In this document: in pieces, positions 10,225 to 17,269 of the stretch
Layout: the number at the start of each line of letters is the position of its first letter
Numbering within the stretch: position 1 is the first letter of the stretch
NCBI RefSeq assembly: GCF_001719065.1
Contig: NZ_LWAF01000008.1
Span: 1 to 64,000, forward strand
Direction: 5' to 3'
Length of the DNA stretch: 64,000 bases
From: Fervidobacterium thailandense
GTDB lineage: Bacteria > Thermotogota > Thermotogae > Thermotogales > Fervidobacteriaceae
Position numbers and translations under genes: made by a program
The notes under the pieces: generated by a model
What the model saw: the letters and a program-made list of their open reading frames with translations, nothing else
Told to the model about the DNA's origin: nothing
Databases searched by the model: none

Positions 10225-10299
10225 GGTAGTTGATAAAACCAACAGGAAACACCGAGGTTTGTATGTTTGCTCAAGCTGTGGGATGGTCTTAAACGCAGA

Positions 10300-10470
10300 T
10301 GTAAACGGAGCGGTGAACACCCTCAAGGAGGTATCTCCGAGATCCCAAAAGGGGATAGGAGTAGGGGCCTTGGCCAGCCCGGTGCGGTTAAGGTTAGTAA
10401 GCTAACATACCGCACGAAGAATCCTCGCACTTTAGTGCGGGGAGTAGGTCAACGAAACTCCAGCTTACAA
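10300..10470 (+). ncRNA. Candidate TnpB guide (omega/re) RNA, copy A
   Basis: TnpB guide RNAs overlap the 3' end of tnpB, run through the right-end hairpin and take their guide from DNA just beyond the element. Here the scaffold would span the tnpB tail and the hairpin at 10423-10442, and the guide would begin at 10453 (CGAAACTCCAGCTTAC). The limits are estimates. No expression signal was identified. Confidence 0.3.
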
Positions 10471-10653
10471 ACCAAAGCTGAGATCAAGGGGAAAGATAGT
10501 CCGGTCACTCAGAGCTAAAACAAAGATTTCGACTACTATACCTTTCAAAGCCTTTCAGAACGCGCCCTTGCGCCTAATTTTGCGTCACGCTTCGTACGAA
10601 ATGGTGAATGTGTATGTTATAATTTTCTTTACCAAGCTTAAGGAGGACAAAAG

Positions 10654-12954: not shown

Positions 12955-13432
12955 CAGAACACCTCCTGAGGTTCCGATCTTTGATTGTCATACTGCTAAT
13001 AATCGTTCATTAGAAATTATAGCATGCTTCTCAAAATTTCCGGCACCGAATTTTGAGACCGTTGACTGATTATTAATTATTGACTTGACGTCGTTTTTGT
13101 GGTTGATTAAAATAGTTTCCGGTTGAGAAAGTTCTTCAATACTGCCTTCCCTTGAAATACGTTTTATCTCCATATCGACTATTTCTTTGAGTAGGATACA
13201 TGTAAAAAACAATTTGAACATGCGAAACGGCTAAATTAACGCAAAGAGTTCAAAACGCATAACTCAAAACTACATTATTAAACGATGAAGAGCAACCAAA
13301 AATGCCATTGAGTAGGGTGTTTTGAATAATCTCAACAACGTCCGCAAAAAGTTCCGAACTTGCTTAAGTTACCAGGTTCGAATAAGTACATCTGATAGTT
13401 TATTACCTTAATCAAATCATGGGGGACTATGT
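12955..13432. other. AT-rich intergenic stretch
   Basis: No convincing gene. A 77-codon minus-strand frame (12988-13221) has no ribosome site and an unconvincing composition. An inverted repeat pairs CTCAAAATT (13030-13038) with AATTTTGAG (13049-13057) without a T-run, so it may be an operator or chance. The right end carries the GGGGGA ribosome site (13421-13426) of the RNase H gene. Confidence 0.4.
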
Positions 13433-14572
13433 ATGCTGAAAGTTTTTACGGATGGGAGCTTTAAGAACGGTTATTGTGGTGCAGCTTATATGATAACTGA
13501 CAACGGCGTAGAAGTTGCATTGCAAGTCCAGGTTTGGAAATCAAAAACTAAGTTGCGAAATGTTGAAGCTGAAATCTCGGCTGCAGTGTTTGCTTTTGAA
13601 GAACTTGTCAAAATGTACGGTACCTTGAAAAACGAAGTGGTCGTTGTGGTCCATGATCTCTTCTCTTTAAAGGATCATTTGCAAAACGAAAGTGCTTCGG
13701 GAACTCAATCTCAAAAGGAACTTACTGAATCCGAGAACGAGTTCATATCTCAAATGAGCAAGAGATTCCTGGAAGCAGTGCGACACCTTGAATGTCAACT
13801 TTCTTTTGAAAAAGTTAGAGGTCATAGCCACGTAGTACACAGCAAAGTCGATTTTGCTCTTTCGACTGTAATGGCCAGACGATTATTAATAGAAAGCACA
13901 AACCGTTGCAACGAAAGCTTGGAGAAAAATTCCGAAACTTTCCCGGGAAATCCAAAACAGCGGAGTCGTGTCTTTGTCGATCCAAAGCGTTATTCTGAGT
14001 ACGAATATAATTACATGGGTTTTGTGCTAAATACTTTGAAAAAACTTAAGACACCTGTAACGATTACTGAGCTAAAGCAAAAACTGCTTGAGAAAAACCC
14101 GTATCTACAGGACAAATCAAAGAATAAAAGGGATATCGAGACCCTCATATTTGACATGGTAAGTGAGGGATTTCTCAAACTAAACGAGCATGGATTTCTC
14201 GAATACAAACCCATTAAACTTGCTTACATAAAAACGGAACCTTTTCCGAGAAAATCAAAACGAGTTGTAGAAAAAGCAAAAAGTTCTTTCAACGAGTCTT
14301 TACTGCACTCTAAATACGTGCAAGATTATGTCAGGTTTCTCCAAAAGTTCATTCAATCCATGGGACGCCCCGTCAGTTACGAAGAAATTGTAAGTTACAT
14401 CGAAACAAGGAAAAATCCGTGGAGGCCTGAAAAATTCAACAACACTAGTTTAGAAGAGCTGCTTGAATTCATGGTTTCGTTAGGAAAAATCGAACGAGAC
14501 GAGGTTGGAAGGTATTACGCTATTTCGTTAGGTGTTCGTCTAAAGCTTTCGCAAAACGAATTGCAACAGTAA
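13433..14572 (+). CDS. RNase HI-type protein with two C-terminal winged-helix-like units
   Basis: A 379-residue protein whose first 155 residues form an RNase H fold. FTDGSF holds Asp7, NVEAEISAA holds Glu47, VVVHDLFS holds Asp75, VRGH holds His131 and KVDFAL holds Asp140. These match the DEDD active site and the loop His of E. coli RNase HI, so hydrolysis of RNA in RNA-DNA hybrids is plausible. After a linker, residues about 193-260 and 295-365 form two similar units (helix, (V/I)TxxELK or VSYEEIV helix, then a hairpin) that look like winged-helix nucleic-acid-binding domains. GGGGGA precedes the ATG. It stands alone just upstream of an IS605-family copy. I do not know this architecture. Confidence 0.75.
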   Translation: MLKVFTDGSFKNGYCGAAYMITDNGVEVALQVQVWKSKTKLRNVEAEISAAVFAFEELVKMYGTLKNEVVVVVHDLFSLKDHLQNESASGTQSQKELTESENEFISQMSKRFLEAVRHLECQLSFEKVRGHSHVVHSKVDFALSTVMARRLLIESTNRCNESLEKNSETFPGNPKQRSRVFVDPKRYSEYEYNYMGFVLNTLKKLKTPVTITELKQKLLEKNPYLQDKSKNKRDIETLIFDMVSEGFLKLNEHGFLEYKPIKLAYIKTEPFPRKSKRVVEKAKSSFNESLLHSKYVQDYVRFLQKFIQSMGRPVSYEEIVSYIETRKNPWRPEKFNNTSLEELLEFMVSLGKIERDEVGRYYAISLGVRLKLSQNELQQ

Positions 14573-14646
14573 AACTCGAATGTCCAAACTTGTTGTAAAA
14601 GTCAGTCACCACGAGACTTTGCGAAGTGATTCCAGATAAAGAACAA

Positions 14647-14673
14647 CGCCCCACATGGGGCGAATTTTTGTTT
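14647..14673 (+). terminator. Rho-independent terminator of the RNase H gene
   Basis: CGCCCC (14647-14652), a four-base loop and GGGGCG (14657-14662) are followed by AATTTTTGTTT. The T-run contains the TTAC target at which IS copy B is inserted. Confidence 0.8.
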
Positions 14674-14795
14674 ACAGAAATTTAAGGTTCTAAAGTTTCG
14701 CACTTCAGTGCGTGGATACAGAGCTTTGGTATTTTCATTTGGTATAACATAACCAAGCACCAGCGTTAATTAACAAACATAGAGGAACATCGCAC

Positions 14796-15187
14796 ATGGT
14801 AGAATTAAGTCCTCACGCCACGCAAAATTTTAAATCGCTTATCATTTTCTCAGGATTCCAAAGTATAGAAAGTACCTTTTAAATGCCTACGTTAAAACAG
14901 AACTCAGCAATATAATCAAAGAAATTGCCCAGCAATTTGGTTTTGAAATCTTAGCATCAGAAGTTATGCCAGACCATGTGCACTTGTTCCTTTCGGCACC
15001 TCCAAAGTACAGCCCTGCTGAGATTATAAAAATCGTCAAAGGAACTACTGCAAGAAAGCTCAGAACTAAATTCCCAACACTGCGCAATTCAAAACATTTG
15101 TGGACAGACTCTTATTTTGTTGCAACGCACGGTAACGTATCTGCTGAAACTATCAGGAGGTACATTGAAGAATGCCAGAATTTGTAA
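14796..15187 (+). pseudogene. tnpA: tnpA (Y1 HUH transposase) with a one-base deletion
   Basis: The IS200-type single-strand transposase. ATG 14796 gives MVELSPHATQNFK. One A is then missing at about 14832-14834, and the rest continues in another frame as IAYHFLRIPKYRKYLLNAY. The HUH motif is HVH in PDHVHLFLS and the catalytic Tyr is in TIRRYIEE. Adding one base would restore an about 130-residue protein of normal length. AGAGGA precedes the ATG. The TnpA frame ends inside the start of tnpB, as is common in this family. Confidence 0.85.
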
Positions 15188-16232
15188 CTAAGTGCTTTGT
15201 CTTAGACCTGTCAAGCAAAACAGATAAGAAGCTTGCTATAATTTTCGGACACCTAACATATTCAGCATCCAAGCTGTGGAATGTTGCTAACTACGTGGTA
15301 GAGAAGAACGGTGTTTCTATCTACGAACTCGAGCATAAGCTCAAAGATAACTTCTTTGCTCGTAACTTGCACTCTCAAAGTGCTCAAGCTGTCCTCCAGA
15401 AGCTTCAAGTTGCTTGGAAGAATACGTTCGATAAGCATACCAAACGTCCACGATATCAGCCCAAGAACGGGCATTTCCCAGTGACTTGAATTCGTTGGTC
15501 ACAAGCTCAGGTTGTCTCTCTCAAAGCAAACCAAGGACTACCTCAAATCAGCCCACGGAATCGAGTCCAAGTACGTATGGATAGAGTTGCCCAAAACTCT
15601 ATCGCTCGATTCAGTGAAGATTCAGCAAGTTGAACTTGTTCCGTATCAAGCTTTTGGACACATTTCTTATGCACTCAGGATAATCTACAGGGAACCTATC
15701 CAAGATCTCAAAGAGAGACTAAAAGCAGTGCCTGATAGACAAAACCTCAGGACTTCTAAGCGATTGCACAGACTCTATCGATACAGACAAAACTACGTTA
15801 ACAACTTCGTGCACAAAGCATCAAGGAGTATCGTCGATTACTGCGTTGAAAATGGTGTTTGAGTAATAGTTGTTGGCGAACTTAACCATGGGATAAACTA
15901 ACATCGATATCGGTAGCCACAACAACCAAAAGCTTCATCAGATGCCGTATGGCAAGTTCTTGCAAAAGCTAAAGTACAAAGCCAAAGCCTACGGTATTCA
16001 AGTCCTCCAAATTGATGAAGCATACACATCGCAGACGTGTTCGTGTTGTGGGGTAGTTGATAAAACCAACAGAAAATACCGAGGTCTGTATGTTATCTCA
16101 AGCTGTGGGATGGTCTTAAACGCAGATGTAAACGGAGCGATGAACATACTCAAGAAGGTATCTCCGAGATCCCCAAAGGGAATAGGAGTAGTGGCTTTGG
16201 CCAGCCCGGTGCGGTTAAGGTTAGTAAATTAA
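15172..16232 (+). pseudogene. tnpB: tnpB pseudogene, copy B
   Basis: Homologous to copy A but decayed differently. The first 105 codons are intact (15172-15489). A net 17-base loss follows GHFPVT and shifts frame. A deletion of over 100 bases after EPIQDLK removes the RuvC-I Asp motif, TGA at 15860-15862 replaces a Gly codon, and one extra base follows the GELNHG region. The tail retains CSCCG and NADVNGA, but one zinc-finger Cys (VCSSCG in copy A) is Ile. The protein cannot be functional. Since copy A and copy B have different lesions, both presumably decayed after insertion. Confidence 0.88.
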
Positions 16233-16295
16233 CATACCGCTCGGAGAATCCTCGCGCTTTAGTGCGGGGAGGAGGTCAATGATATTGGTAAAAGT
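16150..16295 (+). ncRNA. Candidate TnpB guide (omega/re) RNA, copy B
   Basis: The same layout as copy A: tnpB 3' end, right-end hairpin, then a guide taken from sequence beyond TCAA, here starting TGATATTGGTAAAAGT at 16280. It diverges from copy A exactly at the element end, which supports the boundary. The limits are estimates. Confidence 0.3.
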
Positions 16296-16324
16296 CCATC
16301 AGAATTTCACACTCTCCACAGTTG

Positions 16325-17269
16325 TTAATAGTTGCATTTAATTTCCATCCCACCTTCCCAAACCTCTCCCAGCACCTCACCATCTAAATTTGAAAGTAAA
16401 TCCAGTGAATGTTCTTTTTTTGTGATTAATAACATTCCGTATCCCATGTTAAACGTTTTCATAGCCTCCTCAACGGTTACGTATCGAAGAACCCATTGCA
16501 TGTAATCCGGTAACTTTCTTATTTCAACTTTCGCTCCCTTTCCCCGCAATACGCGCTTCAACGCCCTCAACAACCCTCCACCGGTAACATGGGCGAGCCC
16601 TTTTATTCTATCGAACATTTGAATCACTTCCGAGTAAATCCTCGTTCCCGCCAGTAAATCAAATGGAAGTTCGTCGGGTGATATATTCTCATCCTTCAGT
16701 ATTTTTCTTATCAACGACCAACCGTTTGAGTGAAAACCAGAGGCCGGTAATCCAATGATGATGTCCCCCGGTTCTATGGTATCGACCGGCAGCTTACGCT
16801 TGAGGATTCCCACACAAAATCCCGCAACGTCCCATTCACGTTCGCTGTAGATCGACGGAATTTCAGCTGTTTCACCCGCTACCAGCGCCATGCCAAGTTT
16901 TGCAAGCTCTTGCTGTAGAAATTCGATGAACTTGTAGTGTACTTGGTCTATGTGATGTACACCAAGATAGTCCACGAACGCCAAAGGTTGGCCCCCGACA
17001 CAAACGATGTCGTTGTAGTTCATAGCAATGAGATCTATTGCTGCCTCGCACAGTCTTCCAAGCTCAATTTCGAGAAGTAACTTAGAGCCTATCCCGTCCG
17101 CCGTTAAAACTATGGGAGGATTTGTAATATTGAGAATTGTTGCGTATCCGGTTGGTTCTTTAATGACCCACTCCGGTAGGAAGACCTCGGATTTTATAAA
17201 ATCGGTGAACTCATCGTTTCTTCCAACATCCACGCCAGAATCAGCGTAGGTGTACTTTTTATTATCCAT
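16325..17269 (-). CDS. purM: Phosphoribosylformylglycinamidine cyclo-ligase (AIR synthetase)
   Basis: PurM (314 residues) converts FGAM to AIR with ATP in purine synthesis. Recognisable blocks are YADSGVDVGRNDEF at the N-terminus, VLTADGIGSKLLLE, the MNYNDIVCVGGQPLAFVDYL motif, VAGETAEIPSIY, GDIIIGLPASGFHSNG and HVTGGGL. The N-terminus is short, as in T. maritima. It is the last gene of the purFNHDM cluster, 23 bases after purD. IS copy B ends only 45 bases downstream, so the insertion spared the coding region. Confidence 0.95.
   Translation of the reverse strand: MDNKKYTYADSGVDVGRNDEFTDFIKSEVFLPEWVIKEPTGYATILNITNPPIVLTADGIGSKLLLEIELGRLCEAAIDLIAMNYNDIVCVGGQPLAFVDYLGVHHIDQVHYKFIEFLQQELAKLGMALVAGETAEIPSIYSEREWDVAGFCVGILKRKLPVDTIEPGDIIIGLPASGFHSNGWSLIRKILKDENISPDELPFDLLAGTRIYSEVIQMFDRIKGLAHVTGGGLLRALKRVLRGKGAKVEIRKLPDYMQWVLRYVTVEEAMKTFNMGYGMLLITKKEHSLDLLSNLDGEVLGEVWEGGMEIKCNY

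Follow-up and report, generated by a model that had tools for sequence, protein, structure and literature searches.

A divergent RNase HI lineage of Thermotogota found largely at type III CRISPR-Cas loci, and its form fused to two predicted winged helices

Introduction

Type III CRISPR-Cas systems target RNA as it is being transcribed, and RNA-DNA hybrids in the transcription bubble need handling. Among the closest described accessory nucleases are the CRISPR-associated NYN ribonuclease of Bacteroides, which accompanies type III-B systems (PMC11346440) but has a PIN/NYN fold and belongs to another phylum, and the DUF3800 protein associated with types VI-F and V-A2, which, according to the main text of a 2025 CRISPR classification, has an RNase H fold and lies in CRISPR loci but is of a different family and belongs to class 2 systems (PMC12669027). 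DUF3800 is also the sole RNase H fold that this main text names, and a 2024 survey of type III effectors mentions no RNase H accessory in its main text (PMC11229360). We found no dedicated type III RNase HI in the part of the literature covered, which does not by itself show that none has been described. With regard to winged helices of the LOTUS/OST-HTH type, a 2010 survey reported that those of bacteria are almost all fused to a DUF88/LK-nuclease, with no CRISPR linkage (PMC2848206).

Here we describe a gene of Fervidobacterium thailandense whose product joins an RNase HI catalytic domain to two winged helices, together with its relatives in other Thermotogota. The whole 64,000-nucleotide stretch of DNA that was analysed is called the window; its genome is designated G000 and its contig C8, and G001 is a genome of the same genus. 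RNase HI itself is known; what we rate as new is the fusion in which it occurs here and its genomic context.

The window gene and its RNase HI domain

The gene (13433-14572, forward strand) is an intact open reading frame with an ATG start that encodes 379 amino acids. A probable ribosome-binding site, GGGGGA, can be read from the sequence 6 nt upstream of the ATG (13421-13426, forward strand), and an intrinsic-terminator-like hairpin with a T-run follows the gene (14647-14672, forward strand; scan: CGCCCCACATGGGGCG AATTTTTGTT). The hairpin proper (14647-14662) has six G-C pairs and is succeeded by AATTTTTGTT, in agreement with the initial annotation, made from the letters alone, which had credited the gene with its own terminator.

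The same annotation had recognized an RNase HI catalytic domain with the DEDD residues, and both points hold. An AlphaFold2 model of the window protein (mean pLDDT 77) matched E. coli RNase HI in a Foldseek search of the PDB (E about 4e-7), and the family profile matched the solved RNase-H-related protein 2kq2 (E 1e-11); these searches and the DEDD alignment columns delimit the domain to residues 1-158 (13433-13906, forward strand). The window protein itself matched neither Pfam RNase_H nor NCBIfam ribonuclease HI, and two of its homologues (L015 and L018) exceeded the Pfam RNase_H cutoff. All four catalytic residues are present in the alignment columns, namely Asp7 (codon 13451-13453), Glu47 (13571-13573), Asp75 (13655-13657), and Asp140 (13850-13852), all on the forward strand. 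None of D7, N43, E47, D75, and H136 varies among the seven full-length members of the family; D140 is found in six of them, and G001 has His instead. The window protein resembles RNase HI (rnhA) and 2kq2/2kw4 in its fold, its DEDD residues, and the region around E47, whereas it differs from RNase HI in having no N-terminal hybrid-binding domain, in carrying the additional winged helices, and in that residues 87-93, which are not basic, are disordered in the model. On alignment and modelling, we predict that the window protein adopts an RNase HI fold and would cleave the RNA of RNA-DNA hybrids.

Tandem winged helices

Structure prediction and HMM comparison were carried out for both C-terminal repeats, which had been read from the sequence as winged helices binding DNA or RNA. 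The AlphaFold2 model indeed contains two winged helix-turn-helix units, each preceded by a low-confidence linker: WH1 at residues 186-265 (13988-14227, forward strand; also covered by a sub-threshold match to Pfam DUF4777 and by hhalign) and WH2 at residues 288-364 (14294-14524, forward strand). The two resemble each other (BLASTP, 9e-6; hhalign, 97.7%, 1.6e-12), and on these alignments WH2 is a tandem duplicate of WH1. Matches of the winged helices to sequence models were weak (DUF4777, TFIIE beta, and the Egalitarian winged helix, WH_Egal), and another weak sequence relative is the N-terminal winged helix of a putative RNase R. In Foldseek, complexes of Egalitarian with RNA ranked at the top (best E 0.02), and the TDRD7 LOTUS domain (0.14) and RNase R were also among the structural matches, none of which was individually significant. 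Pfam OST-HTH did not match the winged helices, and no OST-HTH model or structure reached significance. Matches to Pfam TBCA_PH and to antibody chains were dismissed as chance.

In the model the winged helices share with the LOTUS/OST-HTH and Egalitarian type a winged-helix fold arranged in tandem, but no match of the window protein to that type reaches significance, and a LOTUS/Egalitarian-like identity, which leans on sub-threshold matches, is probable. RNA binding is favoured by the combined sequence and structure neighbours, so that the suggestion of DNA or RNA binding can be narrowed towards RNA (Egalitarian, TDRD7 LOTUS, and RNase R, none significant individually). The clearest relative of WH1 is the central winged helix-turn-helix of NYN-domain proteins from Thermotogota (profile search, 3e-6; hhalign, E 5e-7, probability 92), which are homologous to the window protein over WH1 and share a SEYExNYM motif with it but carry another nuclease domain. 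These conserved proteins, whose central winged helix is related to WH1, were encountered at L023:8708-10030, L099-L103, and L111; in the single one scanned, Pfam OST-HTH was absent.

A distinct RNase HI clade in Thermotogota

When 103 Thermotogota genomes were searched with the RNase H profile of the family, nine loci in six genomes scored 102-237 bits, and all other RNase H matches in these genomes remained below 55 bits. In a maximum-likelihood tree the nine loci form one clade (support 98/95), apart from ordinary Thermotogota RNase HI and separated from it by a long branch (1.59 changes per site). The sequences give good support to a divergent, fast-evolving RNase HI lineage that is distinct from housekeeping RNase HI. 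Short forms of the clade consist of the RNase H domain only, and long forms add the two winged helices. The long architecture extends from the window protein to homologues in G012 (contig C11), G002, and G017, and these four proteins make up a subclade (97/91), which is consistent with a single fusion event. The architecture had been flagged at the outset as unusual, and so it proved.

Outside Thermotogota, a single-protein scan of genome contigs detected no relatives, and a profile scan of genome contigs returned only the known clade member L058 and distant RNase H proteins. Viral contigs and plasmids yielded no clade relatives, the generic phage RNase H found there being only 31% identical. 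An RNase H protein of Lutispora was considered as a clade member and set aside, as its placement in the clade has weak support (77/69) and its branch is very long.

Genomic context of the clade

The search for defence genes around the relatives across Thermotogota revealed that cas genes, CARF genes, or arrays recur beside them. Of the nine clade loci, five have Cas10 no more than 13 kb away, versus 2 of 74 other Thermotogota RNase H domains (Fisher, 8e-5), a comparison that represents about four or five independent CRISPR contexts in a small clade whose two genera are related. Altogether, most of the clade (seven of nine loci) is situated at cas genes or arrays, when the two copies beside Cas1 in G009 are counted. 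In the window's own genome, a short paralogue on contig C4 lies within a Cmr (III-B) operon, on the same strand as and between the genes for a TM1812 CARF protein and a CARF-CYTH-HD protein, and a short form in G001 (contig C22) occupies a Cmr operon with the same gene order; both are separated from their neighbours by approximately 400-550 bp and are hence loosely coupled. The short form on contig C10 of G012 belongs to a Csm (III-A) operon, 80 bp upstream of a CARF-HEPN gene. Of the two clade copies in G009, one lies 60 bp before Cas1; next to both RNase H genes and Cas1, the stretch L019:6497-9546 encodes a DUF2828/DUF7788 protein along with two small proteins to which Pfam assigns no family.

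The long forms of G002 and G017 adjoin a CRISPR array that has at least 76 repeats and is flanked on its far side by a Cmr operon. Here a truncated RNase H-WH open reading frame (L016:8261-9295 and L017:8085-9119) takes its ATG from the terminal CRISPR repeat, the point at which array and gene meet. Because the first strands, D7 included, are missing, these two proteins cannot be ordinary RNases H. Between the two genomes the truncated gene shows four synonymous and four non-synonymous changes, a small count. A broken long-form remnant was also seen in G015, between a Csm/CARF operon and, at the contig end, an apparent CRISPR repeat recognized by eye. A separate short RNase H lineage is represented in G008 by L067:9567-10004, which follows the cas6 gene of a Csm operon at a distance of 11 bp and is one of the two "other" domains near Cas10 counted above; its relatives in G005 and G011 lie by a zinc-ribbon-like protein, outside CRISPR loci.

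The remaining two long forms are orphans outside any CRISPR locus: there is no CRISPR array or repeat in the window and no Cas10 on its contig, and the stretches analysed around the G012 copy on C11 carry no CRISPR gene. The window's own genome has both Cas10/Cmr2 (C4) and Cas10/Csm1 (C30), and its CRISPR arrays reside on contigs C7, C13, C25, and C27. On C25 (L134:1664-7569) the array is followed by Cas1, an MpAgo-like Argonaute, a radical-SAM-like protein, Cas2, and a CAPP-like primase. No CARF or SAVED (cyclic-oligoadenylate sensor) model matched the window protein; such a sensing domain is not universal among type III accessories. Neither the long nor the short forms were matched by PADLOC, and NCBIfam gave none. 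A reverse-transcriptase partner for spacer acquisition from RNA was rejected for the clade, since PF00078 is absent from all six clade genomes.

The mobile insertion around the window gene

Alignment with the same-genus genome G001 places the window gene in an insertion (12967-16397, no strand assigned) of 3.4 kb where G001 has 309 bp, which bears out the earlier description of a mobile island. The insertion contains the window gene and a decayed IS200/IS605-family element with fragments of Y1 transposase and TnpB (14672-16290, forward strand, right boundary approximate), whose remnants, in separate open reading frames, matched Pfam models (Y1_Tnp, 5e-24; OrfB_IS605, 3e-6; TNB, 8e-25) and whose left end recurs at three places in the genome. 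The GC content of the window gene (39%) is the second lowest among 43 large open reading frames (mean 45.2, sd 2.3). A role in transposition, one of those raised initially, found no link here, the element being a decayed neighbour. A second fragment resembling the C-terminal end of TnpB and the flank of this element occurs at 10267-10518.

Discussion

The function of the protein had been left open between host R-loop processing, defence, and transposition; the linkage of the clade to type III CRISPR loci favours defence. We give close to an even chance to the proposal that the divergent RNase HI lineage serves type III CRISPR-Cas systems as an accessory nuclease in these heat-loving Thermotogota. 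The RNase H of the clade would cleave the RNA strand of RNA-DNA hybrids at a transcribed invader engaged by type III complexes, such hybrids perhaps coming from nascent transcripts re-annealed to the template or from primers, and removal of the RNA may expose the DNA to Cas10 and other nucleases. In the long form, to which one fusion would have added two LOTUS/Egalitarian-like winged helices, these probably hold the enzyme on structured RNA or on a ribonucleoprotein, and the window copy might work in trans with the type III systems encoded on other contigs of its genome. More tentatively, a dedicated RNase HI could be a recurrent and unrecognized component of type III systems, a fused LOTUS-like form included, with hybrid clearing as a distinct step of interference or adaptation. 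With a nuclease found repeatedly next to Cas10, CARF effectors, and Cas1, a hybrid-handling step becomes testable, and a LOTUS/Egalitarian-like fusion would tie a domain of animal germ-granule RNA biology to prokaryotic immunity.

It is also conceivable, although unlikely, that the clade serves adaptation, stripping RNA from RNA-primed DNA or hybrids before integration by Cas1-Cas2, together with CAPP and the MpAgo-type Argonaute. Both G009 copies stand beside Cas1, and a CAPP-like primase, Argonaute, Cas1, and Cas2 are found together in G000, G001, and G012 (families confirmed for G000), the co-occurrence with the clade giving p values of 0.006 for Argonaute and 0.012 for CAPP, uncorrected for relatedness. 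However, both CAPP and Argonaute are missing from G002, G009, and G017, the clade genomes have no reverse transcriptase, and most clade loci adjoin effector or signalling genes rather than Cas1. The biochemistry of CAPPs bears on both sides, as they use a ribonucleotide to start primers and elongate RNA primers on a DNA template but are poor at copying RNA templates (PMC8211822).

The alternative that the protein is a general host nuclease for R-loops or replication, or cargo of a mobile element, with CRISPR proximity arising as a by-product of clustering in defence islands, is likewise improbable. The two orphan long forms and the position of the window copy in an insertion with IS200/IS605 would suit it, but the immediate neighbours of the clade are repeatedly cas or CARF genes and not mixed defence genes. 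An ordinary RNase HI is separately encoded in the same genome (G000:C4:19881-20273) and the clade is patchy (6 of 103 genomes), both of which lower the likelihood of a housekeeping function at R-loops; the separate enzyme also makes a specialized role likely for the clade member.

RNase HI enzymes normally require RNA-DNA hybrids, and the clade members within effector operons have no winged helices, both of which count against an RNA-processing role. RNA processing or trimming of crRNA, for which the winged helices would recruit structured or duplex RNA by analogy with the NYN-winged-helix proteins and the CRISPR-associated nuclease of Bacteroides, is quite improbable, even with the homology of WH1 to the central domain of Thermotogota NYN proteins, the loci that adjoin arrays or cas6, and the proposal that the Bacteroides enzyme trims crRNA 3' ends (PMC11346440).

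Apart from the accessory-nuclease lineage, proteins of approximately 740 residues were noticed in several Thermotogota (L115:1566-3830, L114:3848-6037, and L117:2043-4265), and the one scanned, at L115, has an RNase H at its C-terminus, joined to a PIF1/RecD-like helicase and a TBP-TOTE domain.
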